DNA of 39,043 nucleotides, taken from the NCBI GenBank assembly GCA_023544645.1, contig JAMJFO010000031.1:1-39043 (forward strand), given 5' to 3'. The notes beneath the pieces are model-generated. The model made no database searches and had not been told where the DNA came from. It saw only the letters and a list, made by a program, of their open reading frames with translations. Origin of the DNA: Desulfobulbaceae bacterium (GTDB taxonomy: Bacteria > Desulfobacterota > Desulfobulbia > Desulfobulbales > Desulfobulbaceae). A program made the position numbers and the translations under genes. Below, piece after piece: positions 25,136 to 38,991 of this stretch (position 1 is the first letter of the stretch; each line of letters begins with the position of its first letter).

Positions 25136-27671
<2,536 letters not shown>

Positions 27672-27729
27672 CTATACCGTTTCCCGGTATTGATATGCTG
27701 GGGGAAAGGATCGTAAACGGAGGTATTGC

Positions 27730-28113
27730 GTGCGTCTTAAAATATTGCTGCCCACAGAGATCCTGCTTGATCAGGAAATTCGGCAGGTAAGGGCGGAGAG
27801 CGGAACCGGCGAGTTCTGCCTTAAACCACGTCACATAGATTATGCAACCGCTCTTGTCCCTGGAATCCTTATTTATATTGACATGATCGGAAGGGAGCAT
27901 TTTGTGGCGGTTGACGGCGGCATTCTCGTCAAGCAGAAGGACGAGGTGGACGTGGCCACCAGGCATGCTCTGCCCGGTGAACTGGGCGAGCTTGCAGGGG
28001 TGGTGCAGAAAATGCAGGAAAATTTTATTGAAAGGGAAAAGATCAGCAGGACGGCCGAGGCGCGGCTGGAAATAGGATTTTTTAAGCGGTTTCTTGACCT
28101 CAGCGGTAAATAG
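27730..28113 (+). CDS. atpC: N-type ATPase subunit epsilon
   Basis: The 127-residue epsilon subunit of the central stalk has an N-terminal beta-sandwich (MRLKILLPTEILLDQEIRQV and FVAVDGGILVKQKDEVDVAT) and a C-terminal helical region of about 35 residues. It starts with GTG at 27730, supported by GGAGG six bases upstream. It regulates the catalytic head and couples it to the rotor. It is the second gene of the N-ATPase operon, unlike ordinary F-ATPase operons, where epsilon comes last after beta. Confidence 0.9.
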   Translation: MRLKILLPTEILLDQEIRQVRAESGTGEFCLKPRHIDYATALVPGILIYIDMIGREHFVAVDGGILVKQKDEVDVATRHALPGELGELAGVVQKMQENFIEREKISRTAEARLEIGFFKRFLDLSGK

Positions 28114-28126
28114 TAAGGAAGCAGGC

Positions 28127-28450
28127 ATGGCGGCAACAGGGAATGACCGGGAACAGTTTCCCGGTGAAGTCGACAAACGGGAGAAACGCAAGGTCCGTTC
28201 GCGTCGGAAATCCGATGAAACCGTATGGTTCGGGCTGGGGATGTTCGGCATGGTCGGCTGGGCGGTTGCCATACCGACGGTGGCGGGGATTTTTCTGGGC
28301 ATCTGGATAGACACGCGCTGGCCGTCAAAATATTCCTGGACCCTTATGCTGCTTCTGCTGGGCTTGATACTGGGCTGTTTCAATGCCTGGTACTGGGTGC
28401 AGAAGGAACGCAATGCCATCACCCGGCAAAGGGAGGACAACCATGAGTAG
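28127..28450 (+). CDS. atpQ: N-type ATPase accessory protein AtpQ (AtpI/AtpZ-like)
   Basis: This 107-residue protein has a charged, basic N-terminal 35 residues and two membrane helices (about 45-65 and 76-95). The first contains AIPTVAGIFLGIWIDTRWPS, as in AtpZ/AtpI-type assembly or cation-channel proteins. In N-ATPase operons the gene at this place is called atpQ. The start at 28127 follows AAGGAAGCAGG. Eight bases overlap with atpR. A role in rotor-ring assembly or magnesium supply is inferred from AtpI/AtpZ and is not seen in the sequence. Confidence 0.85.
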   Translation: MAATGNDREQFPGEVDKREKRKVRSRRKSDETVWFGLGMFGMVGWAVAIPTVAGIFLGIWIDTRWPSKYSWTLMLLLLGLILGCFNAWYWVQKERNAITRQREDNHE

Positions 28451-28733
28451 TCAGGCGCTGTTTCTGGGAGCTCTGTTGGGCGTGATCCTGGGATTGTTGT
28501 ATTTCGGCGGATTGTGGTTGACGGTGCGCAGGCTGCCCAAGGTGAAACGGCCGCGGTTTTTTCTGCTGCTGAGTTCGCTGTTCAGGCTTTCGCTGGTTTT
28601 GGGCTGCTTCTGGCTGATCATGCGCCAGGATCTGGTCCTTTTCCTGATAACCCTGTTGTTTTTTTTCCTGCTCCGTATCGTCCTCATCGGGCTGGCGAGA
28701 AAACCCGCCAGGAGGGAAATGCATGCGAATTAG
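28443..28733 (+). CDS. atpR: N-type ATPase membrane protein AtpR
   Basis: The 96-residue protein has three hydrophobic segments (about 5-28, 41-60 and 64-84) separated by basic loops (VRRLPKVKRPR, ARKPARRE). It occupies the position of atpR, a gene found only in N-ATPase operons. Its arginines within or next to the membrane helices (RLSLVLG, LRIVLIGLAR) fit proposals that AtpR touches the c-ring carboxylates. GGGAGG precedes the start. It overlaps atpQ by 8 bases and atpB by 11, so translation is coupled. Confidence 0.85.
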   Translation: MSSQALFLGALLGVILGLLYFGGLWLTVRRLPKVKRPRFFLLLSSLFRLSLVLGCFWLIMRQDLVLFLITLLFFFLLRIVLIGLARKPARREMHAN

Positions 28734-29409
28734 TCCTGATTCCATTATCTACTGGCAGACGGAATTGTTCACCCTCAATGCCACCATCCTGTATACCTGG
28801 CTGGTGATGCTTCTTCTTGTACTCGGCAGCCGGCTTGTTACCAGGAAGCTGCAAACCGGGGAAAGGATGCCGCGCTGGCAGAACCTGCTCGAGTCAATCG
28901 TTGTGCTGATAAACGGCCAGATCCGTGATGTCACCCGGCAGCAGCCGGAACGCTTCCTGCCGTTTCTGGGAACTCTTTTTATATTTATCGGCACTTCAAA
29001 CCTGCTCAGTGTAGTGCCCGGATTTCACCCCCCCACCGGGTCACTGTCCACCACGGCGGGACTGGCAATCTGTGTCTTTGTCGCGGTGCCGGCGTATGCT
29101 ATCGCGGACAACGGGATACTTGGCTACCTCAGGAACTATATACAGCCAACCCCCCTGATGCTGCCGTTTAACATCACCGGCGAAATAAGCCGAACCCTGG
29201 CCCTGGCGGTTCGGCTTTTCGGCAATATCATGAGCGGCAGTATGATTGCTGCCATACTTCTCGCCATTGCTCCGCTTATTTTTCCGGTGCTCATGAATCT
29301 GCTCGGGCTGCTCACCGGCATGGTCCAGGCCTATATCTTTGCCATTCTGGCAGCGGTGTATATCGGCGCGGGAATCAAGGTGCAGGCGAAAAAAGAAAAC
29401 TCAGGGTGA
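28723..29409 (+). CDS. atpB: N-type ATPase subunit a
   Basis: The 228-residue membrane stator subunit has five to six helices. The essential stator arginine is Arg164 in SRTLALAVRLFGNIMSG, and the C-terminal helix ends AYIFAILAAVYIGAGI. It forms the ion half-channels facing the c-ring. CAGGAGG supports the ATG, 11 bases inside the end of atpR. Compared with common subunit a it is short, typical of the N-type. Confidence 0.93.
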   Translation: MRISPDSIIYWQTELFTLNATILYTWLVMLLLVLGSRLVTRKLQTGERMPRWQNLLESIVVLINGQIRDVTRQQPERFLPFLGTLFIFIGTSNLLSVVPGFHPPTGSLSTTAGLAICVFVAVPAYAIADNGILGYLRNYIQPTPLMLPFNITGEISRTLALAVRLFGNIMSGSMIAAILLAIAPLIFPVLMNLLGLLTGMVQAYIFAILAAVYIGAGIKVQAKKENSG

Positions 29410-29487
29410 CGTGATGTTTAGGGGTATTGGTTTTTATTCAAAAAGAAATTCCTGGTGGAAATTCACTGTTACTGCAAGGAGATGACT

Positions 29488-29766
29488 ATGGATAATCTGA
29501 CATTGGTGGCTGTGGCCTCAATAGTTACCGCCGGTCTCTGTATAGGCATCGGCGCCATAGGGCCGGCGCTGGGTGAAGGACGCGCCCTGGCCCAGGCGCT
29601 GAGCTCCATAGCCCAGCAGCCGGATGAGACGAATACCATCACCCGGACATTGTTTGTCGGCCTGGCAATGGTTGAATCAACAGCTATTTACTGCTTTGTT
29701 GTTTCGATGATCCTCATCTTCGCCAATCCGTTCTGGGAATATTTTCTCTCCCGGGCAGGAGGATAA
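29488..29766 (+). CDS. atpE: N-type ATPase subunit c
   Basis: The 92-residue rotor protein consists of two membrane helices joined by the polar loop AQQPDET (residues 42-48). Helix 1 has GPALGEGRALAQ with Glu30, helix 2 has AMVESTAIY with Glu63-Ser64-Thr65 and Tyr68. The EST...Y set resembles sodium-binding c subunits, but a second carboxylate, Glu30, replaces the Gln of Ilyobacter tartaricus. Double-carboxylate rings of this kind have been reported as proton-translocating in one N-ATPase, so the coupling ion is open. The start at 29488 follows AAGGAG. Confidence 0.93.
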   Translation: MDNLTLVAVASIVTAGLCIGIGAIGPALGEGRALAQALSSIAQQPDETNTITRTLFVGLAMVESTAIYCFVVSMILIFANPFWEYFLSRAGG

Positions 29767-29769
29767 GCC

Positions 29770-30525
29770 GTGCTCCTCGACTGGTTCACGGTTGGCGCGC
29801 AGATCGTCAATTTTCTTATCCTGATCTATCTGCTGAAACGGTTCCTCTATAAGCCGATACTCAGGGCAATGGATGAACGGGAACAGAAGATCGCCGGACG
29901 GCTGCAGGAAGCGGCAAAGAAGAGAGAGTTGGCGGAATCGGAAGCCGCTTCTCTGGCCGAGGAGCGTCGTGAACTGGAAAACAGCAGGGAGAAAATGCGG
30001 GAAGATGCCCGGGCGGAAATCGAGAAGTGGCGCGATGAAGCCATGCAGCAAGCCAGAAGCGAGGTGGCGGAAACCAGACACACCTGGCAGGATAACCTGG
30101 AACGTGAGCAGAATGATTTTGTCCGCAGGCTGAAGGCCGTTCTGGGCCGCCAGGTATTCCGCGCTGCGGCCAAGGCCATGGAGGACCTGGTCGATGAAGG
30201 GCTTCAGGGCAAGCTGGTAGAGACATTTGCCGGAAAGCTCCCGACATTAATTGCCGATAATGAGGAAACGGGTCGGCGCATGGGAAATGAGCTGGAGGTC
30301 AAATCCGGATTTGAATTGAATGAACAGCAACTTAAAGATGTGCGGGCTGTGGTCGGGGAGCTTTTTCCGGAGTCTGATATCGATTTTGCCGTTGACCCGG
30401 ACATCGGTTTCACCATCCGGCTTGTGGGCGGCAACCATAGAATTGAATGGGGGCTGAACCGCTATATGGATGAAATGGAAGAAAAGGTCCTGAACACCAT
30501 GCATCTGGCGCAGGGTAAAAAATGA
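29770..30525 (+). CDS. atpF: N-type ATPase subunit b with delta-like C-terminal domain
   Basis: The 251-residue protein begins with GTG (ribosome-binding site CAGGAGG). It has one membrane helix (about 5-23, [19 protein letters not shown]), a long charged coiled coil (about 28-125) and a C-terminal domain whose segment [20 protein letters not shown], with [13 protein letters not shown] after it, resembles the last third of subunit delta. The operon has no separate delta gene, so this fused subunit presumably serves both as peripheral stalk and as head clamp. It overlaps atpA by four bases (ATGA). Confidence 0.9.
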
Positions 30526-32108
30526 GTCTGAAAGAACTGGAGAGTGCCCTTGATCACGTGGCTTCCGGAATCGAGGCACACCTGGAAAAATTCAACCCGA
30601 CGGTCGCCATCGAGGAAGTCGGGCGCATCCGCAAGATAAGCCAGGGCATTGTCTGGGCCGAGGGATTGAACAGAGTGCAGGCCGAGGAACTGGTGGTCCT
30701 GGGAGCGAATACGATTGGTGTGGTGCTGGATATTCTGCCGGAGAGGATCGGCATTGTGCTGCTGGGGCCCGACAAGAAACTGAGGGCCGGCGACGAGGTG
30801 GCCAGAACCGGGCGCATTCTGGAGATTCCGGTGCATGAGGATATGGTCGGCAGGGTGGTAGATCCGATGGGCAGTCCCCTGGATGACCGGGAAGCGCTGC
30901 CGGATGAACAACGGCTGCCGGCGCAGCGTGAAGCGCCGGCAATCATGGACCGGGCCCCGGTTGATACCCCCCTGCAGTCGGGCATCAAGGTGGTCGACGC
31001 CCTGATACCCATCGGCCGCGGCCAGCGCGAACTCATCCTTGGCGACCGCCAGACCGGGAAAACAGCGGTGGCGGTTGACACCATTATCAACCAGCGCGGC
31101 AAAGACGTGATCTGCATCTACTGCGCCATCGGCCAGCGCAGCTCCAGCATTGCCAAGGTGATTAATGACCTCAGGCGCTACGGTGCCATGGAACACACTA
31201 TTGTCGTGGTTGCCGAAGGCAATGATCCGCCGGGCCTGCAGTATATCGCGCCGTATGCGGCAACATCGATTGGGGAATTTTTTATGGAGCAGGGCCGCGA
31301 CGTCCTGATCGTCTATGACGACATGACCCGGCATGCCCAGGCCTACCGGCAGATCTCTCTTCTCATGCGTCGCCCGCCCGGTCGCGAAGCGTTTCCCGGC
31401 GATATTTTTTACATCCATTCCCGGCTGCTGGAACGGTCAACTCATCTCAGGTCCGAACTGGGGGGAGGTTCGCTGACCGCGCTGCCGATCATTGAGACGG
31501 AAGCGCAGAATATTTCCGCGTATATACCCACCAACCTGATCTCCATCACCGACGGCCAGATATACCTTTCCCCCGATCTGTTCCAGAAGGGGATGCTGCC
31601 GGCAATCGAGGTCGGTAAATCCGTGTCGCGGGTGGGCGGGAAGGCTCAGCTGCCCGCGTACCGTAAAGTGGCGGGCGATCTGCGGCTGTCCTATTCCCAG
31701 TACCAGGAGCTTGAATCATTCTCTCGATTCGGCACCAAGCTGGACGAGGAGACCCGCAATAAGCTGGCCCACGGCAGAAGGGTGCGTGAAATCCTCAAAC
31801 AGAAACAGTCCCGCGCCCTTTCGGCAGCCCAGCAGATAGCAGTATTGTTCTGCGTGAATGAGGGATTGCTTGACGGGCTTCCCCTGGATGCCATGGGATC
31901 CATTGAAGAAGAAATAGTTGAATTAATGGGTACGGATGACCACCTGGCGGAAGCGGTACTTGCGGCAGGCAGGAAAGACGCCGTCTGGGATGAACTCCTG
32001 GATAAGCTGAAGGAAGCCGTCGACAAGCTGTCGCAGAAAGATCAGGGACCGGACGATGATGAGCACGCCGGAAAAGATAAGGAAAACCGGGAAAAAGGAC
32101 AGGCCTGA
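30522..32108 (+). CDS. atpA: N-type ATPase subunit alpha
   Basis: The 528-residue head subunit has Walker [19 protein letters not shown] and the C-terminal helical domain through [12 protein letters not shown]-like sequence. It binds nucleotide non-catalytically and pairs with beta. The last ~25 residues are a highly charged tail ([19 protein letters not shown]), echoing the tail on the beta subunit. The ATG overlaps the atpF stop. The following atpG starts five bases after its stop. Confidence 0.95.
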
Positions 32109-32113
32109 AAACA

Positions 32114-32989
32114 GTGCAAACCCTGGAGAGCCTGCAGCGGAAAATTCATACGGCCCATGACCTGCTTTCCGTGGTCAAAACCATGAAAAGTCTGGCCGCG
32201 GTGAATATCAGGCAGTATGAATCAGCGGCCGCGGCCATGGATACCTATTACGGGATTGTGGAAAAGGGCTGGCAGGCGCTGTTCCGTGATTGGGGCGAAA
32301 TACCGTTCAGCGGGTCGGAGAAGGCCGCGGTGTGCCTGGTGCTGGGTTCGGACCAGGGAATGTGCGGCCAGTTCAACGACGTCGTGCTGAATATGGCCTT
32401 TGATCACGCGGACAAACTGGCATCACGGGGACAGCGCTGTTATTTCTGGGCGGCAGGGGAAAGAATTTCTTCCGGCCTGGAAGATGGTCCCGGAGCGGAG
32501 GAATATTTTGCGCTGCCGAGCAGCATCACCGGTATCAGCGAACAGATGTACAGGATTGTGGAAACTTTCGGCCGTTGGCGGCAGAAGAATAATACCGAGA
32601 TCCTGTATGTCATTCATAATCGGCAGGAGCACGAAGCGAGCGGTTACCGCCCTTCTTTAAACAGGATTCTGCCGTTGGATCGGGAGTGGCTTGCGGAAAA
32701 AAGAAAAAAGCCATGGCCCTCGCGATGTCTACCCATGCTGGGCCTGCCTGAAGAAAACCTGTTCGACCAGCTCCTGCGGCAATATCTTTTCGCCTCCTTT
32801 TTCAGGGCTTTTGCCCAGTCACTGGCCAGTGAGAACGCGGCCCGTCTGGCCTCCATGCACTCGGCTGAAAAGAATATTACCGAAATGGAGGAGCGGCTGC
32901 AGGGATCATACCGTGAAGCGCGGCAGAATTTGATAACTTCTGAACTGTTTGACATTATCTCAGGTTTTGAAGCGATCATGGAAGAGTGA
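32114..32989 (+). CDS. atpG: N-type ATPase subunit gamma
   Basis: The 291-residue central-stalk subunit starts with GTG. Both coiled-coil ends are recognisable: TLESLQRKIHTAHDLLSVVK with TMKSLAAVNIRQYE at the N-terminus, and EMEERLQGSYREARQNLITS near the C-terminus. The globular middle holds VLGSDQGMCGQFND. It has diverged considerably from typical F-ATPase gamma, as expected for N-type enzymes. It is the last gene of the operon, followed after 72 bases by ftsH. Confidence 0.9.
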   Translation: MQTLESLQRKIHTAHDLLSVVKTMKSLAAVNIRQYESAAAAMDTYYGIVEKGWQALFRDWGEIPFSGSEKAAVCLVLGSDQGMCGQFNDVVLNMAFDHADKLASRGQRCYFWAAGERISSGLEDGPGAEEYFALPSSITGISEQMYRIVETFGRWRQKNNTEILYVIHNRQEHEASGYRPSLNRILPLDREWLAEKRKKPWPSRCLPMLGLPEENLFDQLLRQYLFASFFRAFAQSLASENAARLASMHSAEKNITEMEERLQGSYREARQNLITSELFDIISGFEAIMEE

Positions 32990-36471: not shown

Positions 36472-37752
36472 ATGGGGTCCGGAAATAAACGAATAAAGAA
36501 TAATACGTTATATCTGCGGAATACTCTCAGCCGCCGGCTTGACCCTTTTATCCCGGCAGACAGAAAGCTGGTCAGGATGTTCACTTGCGGGCCATCCATA
36601 TACGACAGGCCGCATATCGGCAACTACCGCACCTACATTTATGAAGACATCCTCGAGCGATATCTCAATTATCTCGGATGCCGGGTCAAACGGGTTATAA
36701 ATTTTACCGATGTCGAAGATAAATCCATTGCCCGGATGGAGAAGCAAGGGGCCTCTCTGGCGGAGGTTACGGAACCGAATGCCGCGCTTTTCAGAAAAGA
36801 GGCCCATGATCTGCATATCAGGCTGCCGACATATATCCCCCGTTCCTCAACCACTGTCGACCAGGCGGTCAAACTGATTCAGATTCTTCTCAAGAAAAAA
36901 ATCGCCTACCGGCATGGCCGGGATATTTTTTATGATCCGCTCAAATTCGAAGGTTTCGGCAAACTATTCGGGCTCGACATGAGCAAGTGGCCAACGCAGA
37001 AACGACGCTTTGCCAGGGATACCTACCCCGGACAACGCTGGAATCTCGGTGATTTCATCCTCTGGCACGGTTACCGGCGCAACTGGGGTGGCAGCCTTTG
37101 CTGGGACATGGAAATCGGCAAAGGACGCCCGGCCTGGAATATACAGGACCCCGCCATGATTACCGCCCATCTGGGGTATCAGATTGACATCAGCTGCGGC
37201 GGTGTGGATAATCTGTACCGGCACCACGATTATACGATCGCGGTTATCGAGGCGGTTTCGAGGAAACAGTTTGCCCGCTACTGGCTCCATGGAGAGCATG
37301 TTCTCATTGACGGCAAAAAAATGTCAAAAAGCAAGGGCAATATCCTCTATCCCGGTGATCTCGTTGACCGGGGATACAACCACGGCCATATCCGTTTTCA
37401 TCTGCTGCGCACCCACTATCGTCGGAGAATAACTCTCAGGGAGACAGAACTGGCTGAAAGCCGTGAACAACTTGATAACCTGCAGATTCAGATTCAGAAA
37501 GTTCTTGATCCCACCCTCTATGTCAAAAACGATTCCGCCAAATTCAGAAATTTGCTTGCCGCATTGCGTAATGGTTTTACGCAGGCCATGAATAACGACC
37601 TCGACAGCGGCGCGGCCATTTCAAATCTTGGCAACACCATCAACCTGCTGGTACAATTTAAAGATCAGCAGGGTATCAACAAGAAGCAGGCAGCCTCGTT
37701 CCGGCAGGTTCTTACCGGAATCGATTCGGTGTTAAAGGTATTTAACTTCTGA
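36472..37752 (+). CDS. Cysteinyl-tRNA-synthetase-like ligase with degenerate zinc site
   Basis: The 426-residue class I ligase-fold protein is homologous to CysRS: MFTCGPSIYDRPHIGNYR near the start (HIGN 48-51), FTDVEDKSI, GDFILWHG, FARYWLHG and KMSKS (283-287). Of the four zinc ligands of E. coli CysRS, Cys39 and His251 remain. Cys209 is Asp226 (PAWNIQDPAM instead of PGWHIECSAM), and Glu238 is Thr255 (HHDYT instead of HHENE). It ends early, lacking most of the C-terminal anticodon-binding part, and in length resembles MshC-type ligases. Zinc recognises the cysteine thiol in CysRS, so specificity is probably altered. The stop is 13 bases before the antiporter gene. The ribosome-binding site is weak. 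Confidence 0.88.
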   Translation: MGSGNKRIKNNTLYLRNTLSRRLDPFIPADRKLVRMFTCGPSIYDRPHIGNYRTYIYEDILERYLNYLGCRVKRVINFTDVEDKSIARMEKQGASLAEVTEPNAALFRKEAHDLHIRLPTYIPRSSTTVDQAVKLIQILLKKKIAYRHGRDIFYDPLKFEGFGKLFGLDMSKWPTQKRRFARDTYPGQRWNLGDFILWHGYRRNWGGSLCWDMEIGKGRPAWNIQDPAMITAHLGYQIDISCGGVDNLYRHHDYTIAVIEAVSRKQFARYWLHGEHVLIDGKKMSKSKGNILYPGDLVDRGYNHGHIRFHLLRTHYRRRITLRETELAESREQLDNLQIQIQKVLDPTLYVKNDSAKFRNLLAALRNGFTQAMNNDLDSGAAISNLGNTINLLVQFKDQQGINKKQAASFRQVLTGIDSVLKVFNF

Positions 37753-37765
37753 CCAGGTCAGTATC

Positions 37766-38991
37766 ATGCAGAGTCCTGAAGGCGACATCACCCTCCTTGT
37801 TTTGATGACCGGTGTCATCCTGGTTTCCACGGCACTGATAAAACTTGTTTTCGAACGTCTTACAATACCGCCGGTAGTCGGCTTCATTCTTTTTGGTCTT
37901 TCTCTCAACCTTATCAACACCCGCATCAGCTTTCTCGGCCCGGGTGCCGGTGAAACGCTCCGGTATCTCTCCGGAATCGGCATCATCTGCCTGTTGTTCC
38001 GGGCCGGACTGGAATGCGATCTCCATGGGCTGATTAATCAGCTGCGTCGGGCTACTGTTATCTGGATGGCCAATATGGTTGTCAGCGGTCTAACCGGATA
38101 CGCAGCAACCAGGTATCTTCTGGGCTACGCTCTTGTTCCCAGTCTGATCGTAGCCGTGGCCATGACCGCGACCAGTGTCGGCATCTCGTTGGCAGTCTGG
38201 CAGCAGCAAAAAGTCACTGATTCTGACAATGGGCGATTGTTGCTTGATATTGCCGAGCTCGATGACATATCGGCCGTTATTCTCATGGCCATGCTTTTTA
38301 CCCTTATCCCTCTTCTGATGAATGATCAGACGGATCAGCTATGGGTGGCTCTGTCCGGGACAGGCCTGGTTTTCGCGGTCAAGCTGTCGGGATTTGTCGC
38401 CTTGTGTTGTTTTTCGCCACCTTGGCAGAGCATCCCATTGTCAATTTTTTCCGCAAGTTCGACCCGCCACCCCTGCCGATGCTGACGGTAGTTGGCATTG
38501 GTTTCATTATAGCTGCCATTGCCGGTATACTCGGTTTTTCCGTGGCCATCGGCGCTTTTTTTGCCGGATTGGTATTCAGCCGCGACCAAAAAGCTGTAAA
38601 AATGGAGGCTTCATTTATTCCTCTGTATGAATTTTTTACCCCCTTTTTTTTCATCACCATAGGGCTTGATATAGAGATCACTTCTCTGGACAGGTCATTT
38701 CCCCTGGCATTCGTTCTTCTGGCTGCTGCAGTTATCGGAAAGATGCTTGCGATTGGGATACCACTATGGATATTAAAGGATCTGCCGACCGCGTTGCTTG
38801 TGGGCGCCAGTATGGTGCCGCGGGCGGAAATTGCCATGGTTGTCATGCAGAAAGGGGATCAATCCGGCAAGGACGTGCTGCCTCCGGAACTTTTCAGCGG
38901 CATGGCGCTGGTCAGTATCGCGACCTGTGCTTTTGCTCCGTTGTCCGTGCGTTTCATGCTCCTGCGATGGCCGCAGAAAAAGATTAAATAG
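37766..38991 (+). pseudogene. CPA2 cation:proton antiporter membrane domain, split by a one-base frameshift
   Basis: The first frame gives helices 1-7 or so of a KefB/NapA-like antiporter (RLTIPPVVGFILFGL, LLFRAGLE, VAMTATSVGISLA, DIAELDDISAVILM). The second frame, one base back, continues LFFATLAEHPIVNFF, GFSVAIGAFFAGLVFSR and PFFFITIGLDIEI to a stop at 38991. Adding one T to the five-T run at 38410-38414 restores an intact protein of about 408 residues with 12-13 membrane helices. There is no RCK/TrkA-N regulatory domain. It would exchange Na+ or K+ for H+. It forms a two-gene unit with the CysRS-like gene 13 bases upstream. Confidence 0.85.

Follow-up and report, generated by a model that had tools for sequence, protein, structure and literature searches.

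Does a protein built like a cysteinyl-tRNA synthetase (CysRS), but with two of the four zinc ligands replaced, still charge tRNA with cysteine, and if not, what would it make? The question is raised by a gene found near the end of a 39,043-nucleotide contig of a Desulfobulbaceae bacterium, the whole of which is referred to as the window. The catalytic domain of the encoded protein matches PF01406 (E 9e-69), while its scores lie under the cut-offs of both curated models, with 286 bits against 340 for cysS (TIGR00435) and 181 bits against 485 for MshC, the cysteine:glucosaminyl-inositol ligase. The AlphaFold model (mean pLDDT 94.2) adopts the same fold as CysRS over the whole chain (PDB 8qhp and 1li5, Z 47.1 and 46.5, respectively), and its residues 12–426 align to residues 1–396 of E. 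coli CysRS with a Z of 46.5; for MshC residues 13–412, the Z is 41.5 (PDB 3c8z and 8hfm being the MshC structures). The chain stops where the anticodon-binding domain (ABD) of the E. coli enzyme starts.

The alignment bears out what the earlier note had read at this locus, namely a CysRS homologue carrying HIGN and KMSKS in which Asp226 and Thr255 stand for the E. coli zinc ligands Cys209 and Glu238. The two other ligands, Cys28 and His234, are present as Cys39 and His251. The protein therefore resembles CysRS in its HIGH and KMSKS motifs and in half of the zinc site, and differs from it in the replaced ligands, the lack of an ABD, an insert of its own and the sub-cut-off cysS score. Cys242, Arg250, Asp253, Tyr254 and the insert at residues 173–193 had been overlooked in that note.

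Table 1 Features of the CysRS-like gene and of its downstream neighbour, in window positions
Feature	Position	Strand	Basis or remark
CysRS-like ligase, 426 aa, of an ABD-less family with Asp226	36472..37752	+	ORF call, domain and model matches, tree
HIGN (class I HIGH), codons 48–51	36613..36624	+	alignment
KMSKS, codons 283–287	37318..37332	+	alignment
Cys39 codon (= E. coli Cys28), kept	36586..36588	+	alignment
NIQD, residues 223–226, replacing HIEC; Asp226 for zinc ligand Cys209	37138..37149	+	alignment
RHHDYT, residues 250–255, replacing PHHENE; His251 kept, Thr255 for Glu238	37219..37236	+	alignment
Cys242 codon	37195..37197	+	Cys in 85/89 family rows; CysRS mostly Gly/Thr/Ala there
Family-specific insert, residues 173–193, WPxxKxRFxxDTYxGxxWNxG, candidate acceptor-binding element	36988..37050	+	89-row alignment
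CPA2 antiporter split over two frames, 37766–38485 and 38341–38991	37766..38991	+	ORFs, domain matches

The search for relatives covered 84,980 species genomes and gave 132, of which the best 80 were retained; all but three of these 80 are of the type found in the window. In the family alignment of 89 rows, a few of which come from duplicate genomes, Gln225, Asp226, Arg250, Asp253 and Tyr254 are each found in 89/89, and the HIGH and KMSKS motifs are invariant across the family. Cys39, Asp226, His251, Asp253 and Tyr254 are likewise invariant among 70 extracted proteins, where position 255 is occupied by N, T, S, V or I and never by E. The remodelled zinc site is thus a fixed family trait; of the two swaps that the earlier note proposed to check in homologues, Asp226 is kept throughout and Thr255 varies, though never back to Glu. 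An Asp226 present in 89/89 rows across phyla exceeds chance, and none of the close homologues found is an established CysRS that carries these zinc-site residues. The signature of the insert 173–193 is absent from every CysRS, MshC and INT protein (see below) examined. The shortening of the tRNA-binding C-terminus, also claimed earlier, extends to the whole family: the anticodon-binding CysS_C domain was found by domain search in none of 63 members, and about 70 C-terminal residues are left, where DALR_2 is matched weakly by 9 of the 63.

Judged from the other genes of the genome, the Asp226-family gene is not the window cell's own CysRS. Two further CysRS homologues are encoded there, both with intact Cys/Cys/His/Glu sites, and one of them (L003) is the canonical CysRS, the second cysS that the earlier note had sought. 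The other (L002; G000:C92:18692-19915, 771 aa) joins a PLP-dependent, cysteine-synthase-like (PALP) domain to a complete CysRS in which the KMSKS motif is degenerate (KMTEE). Frames resembling it, of 760–820 aa, occur in most of the relatives and Desulfobacterales genomes searched; the fusion is widespread in the window's phylum, kept alongside a normal CysRS. Of the 20 carriers examined for it, 13 encode a canonical CysRS that scores over the cut-off, and five archaeal carriers without one possess SepCysS, as does a sixth archaeal carrier (G460). Another 21 archaeal genomes that encode a family or INT protein were examined, and SepCysS passes the cut-off in 19 of them. Two carrier MAGs, G445 (L035) and G454 (L075), yielded neither SepCysS nor a canonical cysS above the cut-off, likely owing to gaps in these MAGs. 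G445 also encodes a PALP-CysRS-type protein (L185, G445:C79) whose CysRS part has neither the zinc ligands nor KMSKS.

In a tree of 72 rows comprising the family, INT, MshC and CysRS, the Asp226 family forms a single clade (100/100). Its sister (98/94) is what we define here as the INT clade, ABD-less CysRS-like proteins of 402–424 aa from Methanosarcinales (archaea), with the members L136-L143, L150-L157, L162, L163, L170 and L175. The family branches with archaeal-type CysRS and MshC with actinobacterial CysRS, so the ABD was lost at least twice; the comparison with true CysRS and MshC that had been proposed for this protein sets it apart from MshC. Like the Asp226 family, the INT clade has no ABD, a non-Glu residue at position 255 (mostly Val, Glu in one protein only) and an ABC-2 exporter nearby; unlike it, the INT clade keeps HIEC with Cys209 and is without the insert signature. 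Loss of Glu238 alone carries little weight, since MshC (Ser) and the INT clade have lost it too. With the ABD lost and Cys209 kept, the INT clade looks like an intermediate, which makes the order of the changes open to testing.

The family is present in archaea and in at least three bacterial phyla, and its distribution is patchy. The closest homologue of the window protein (L008) matches at 67–68%. Carriers make up 12 of 395 genomes sampled in the window's phylum, the window genome counted, whereas in one spirochaete order they amount to half the genomes (23 of 46); the gene was found in 0/6 other genomes of the window's genus and in 0/56 relatives searched. Plasmid and phage matches were rejected as family members, being CysRS- or MshC-like at about 28–34% identity. 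Some 500 Klebsiella plasmid records (503) carry a CysRS-like gene, often unannotated, the product of which has about 29% identity with the window protein.

Two functions of CysRS paralogues are listed in reviews, MshC and CysRS* (PMC9437257, PMC7609411, PMC11415595). Like the window protein, MshC has no ABD, has lost Glu238 and has a Tyr in the HHxY motif. Its zinc is held by only three protein ligands, C43, C231 and H256, and its T46 and T83 contact the amino group of the substrate (PMC9736012). The zinc triad is incomplete in the window protein, where the equivalent of C231 is Asp226; the equivalents of T46 and T83, Ser42 and Thr79, are invariant in the family. With these contacts kept and the pocket residues new, recognition of the α-amino group looks conserved and that of the side chain rebuilt.

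Asp226, Cys39, His251 and Cys242 together could still hold zinc, and the enzyme might then be an MshC-like ligase joining cysteine to a small molecule to make a low-molecular-weight thiol, with the metal on Cys39, His251, Asp226 and perhaps Cys242. MshC manages with three protein ligands, the Cys242 gained by most members could replace Cys209, and the INT sister clade retains Cys209 itself. We nevertheless find such a thiol ligase quite improbable, as it is Asp226 that is invariant whereas Cys242 is not, and the new invariant residues Gln225, Arg250, Asp253 and Tyr254 exceed the needs of a ligand swap.

CysRS* is a paralogue without an ABD that stands beside a canonical CysRS (PMC7609411, PMC11415595); it occurs in Desulfobacterales in a selC*-selB*-cysS* operon and serves an opal tRNA-Cys (PMC7609411, PMC9437257). 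The Asp226 family shares with it the missing ABD and an occurrence in Desulfobacterales, a likeness that would fit an enzyme still directed at RNA, charging a particular tRNA through the acceptor stem or modifying RNA. The remaining C-terminal residues with their occasional DALR_2 matches point the same way. However, no SelC-like or unusual tRNA was detected by ARAGORN in 60 family loci, no SelB-type ORF by a motif search of the ORFs in family loci, and the rebuilt pocket speaks against cysteine; CysRS*, compared here by its description, has changes in CP1, whereas the side-chain pocket is rebuilt too in the Asp226 family. The range of the family is also far wider than that of CysRS*, reaching well outside Desulfobacterales to archaea, spirochaetes and Nitrospirota, and a survey of 106 Desulfobacterales genomes gave no other CysRS-like frame of 380–440 aa assignable to CysRS*. 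An RNA-directed role is accordingly unlikely, if one to be taken seriously.

Some duplicated aminoacyl-tRNA synthetases have lost catalysis and taken other roles, according to a general statement in PMC9437257, and the family could by analogy be catalytically dead and act in regulation or as a scaffold. We consider this very unlikely, given the strong conservation of the ATP-site motifs, of the amino-group contacts and of the new pocket.

The anatomy, with no CysS_C in 63 members and the amino-group contacts kept, is that of MshC-type small-molecule ligases, as had been suspected. Since the anticodon-reading part is lost and the cysteine pocket rebuilt, the enzyme probably joins another amino acid to a small molecule. 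Our best explanation, to which we give an even chance, is a CysRS-derived, tRNA-independent, MshC-like ligase for a non-cysteine α-amino acid, the product of which is exported in some lineages. Such an enzyme would work outside translation, with its class I ATP site intact and the residues by which MshC holds the α-amino group retained. Most carriers have a canonical CysRS or SepCysS for translation, which fits this reading; the two MAGs in which neither was found count against it. The amino acid adenylated would be an α-amino acid, not cysteine and probably small and polar. The enzyme may then transfer it to a small acceptor bound by the insert 173–193, onto an amine or a comparable group, much as cysteine is transferred to glucosaminyl-inositol by MshC. 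The changed pocket would then point to a new metabolite and provide a clear case for testing the way in which metal-dependent synthetase pockets are re-specialized.

The exporter belonging to this reading is suggested by a NodIJ-like ABC-2 pair, permease and ATPase, which adjoins the family gene in three orientations in three lineages: divergent in Hadarchaeum (L054), convergent in archaea of the order Methanosarcinales (L082, L144-147, L149) and co-directional in a Desulfobacteraceae MAG (L046). The permeases match that of L046 at 39–45% and each other at up to 82% among the archaea. A related pair lies directly upstream of the INT gene, ATPase and permease included, in 6/10 loci. Genomes were called permease-positive at a profile score of 260 bits or more, a threshold set after the scores had been seen; cut-offs of 150 and 300 bits gave the same answer. 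The permease occurs in 29/41 carriers vs 5/73 non-carriers (Fisher p about 1e-12) and in 13/21 Desulfobacterota-type carriers in which it is not adjacent vs 3/60 (p about 2e-7), p-values that are too small because the genomes are related. Its nearest described relative is NodJ (133–160 bits), and those of the linked ATPase are NodI and DrrA (261–297 bits), all below the curated cut-offs; the transporter represents a distinct NodJ-like subfamily.

Against an exporter common to the whole family, the permease profile found no such permease in the window genome, and the spirochaete order with 23/46 carriers is devoid of the strict form. A related permease is found there in 13/23 carriers vs 8/23 non-carriers (p 0.24), and the link was rejected for spirochaetes in the absence of any association. 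Support for the ABC-2 link is thus good in some lineages, whereas others show no link, and it is in archaea and many Desulfobacterota that the product may be moved out by the NodIJ-like transporter. No third conserved partner was seen among the genes around the pair. Membrane proteins in general are more frequent near the gene than farther away (20/105 vs 23/220, p 0.037, the loci being related), an enrichment too weak to serve as main evidence. MATE neighbours were discarded as partners, their four loci tracing to about two lineages, and so were CNNM neighbours, which come from Syntrophobacteraceae-type synteny.

Taken further, the family would be a second, independent CysRS-derived small-molecule ligase, non-cysteine and with a rebuilt metal/polar pocket, forming with the NodIJ-like ABC-2 exporter a minimal three-gene make-and-export system spread horizontally among archaea and Desulfobacterota; this we put forward only tentatively, as a possibility with the chances somewhat against it. 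If true, MshC, the CysRS-derived small-molecule ligase of the reviews, would be joined by another lineage, one in which the amino-acid pocket has changed. The family is apparently undescribed: a search of mainly open-access literature met only MshC and CysRS*, and no published description. By default its genes would receive the label cysteine--tRNA ligase and so stay hidden. The carriers belong to uncultured, environmentally important groups, among them Methanoperedens, Nitrospira, sulfate reducers and soda-lake spirochaetes.

The earlier note had proposed instead that the ligase product is a small molecule controlling the CPA2 antiporter encoded next door. The spacing it gave is right, the antiporter starting 13 bases past the ligase stop on the same strand; the pairing does not stand. 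Both antiporter frames match only Na_H_Exchanger, and since these overlapping frames share one such domain, with the frame change near 38395–38415, the gene is frameshifted as assembled. A KefB/C-type regulatory domain was not found by domain search in either frame, which leaves gating by adducts without visible basis, and the antiporter does not lie beside the gene in any other family locus examined. Neighbour survey and frameshift together rule out a partnership; the antiporter is a chance neighbour outside the system, and gating by the ligase product is almost certainly wrong. Elsewhere in the window, positions 26145–32989 hold alternate F1F0 ATPase genes of the N-ATPase type (β, a and more subunits) beside a GAPDH gene, followed by ftsH.
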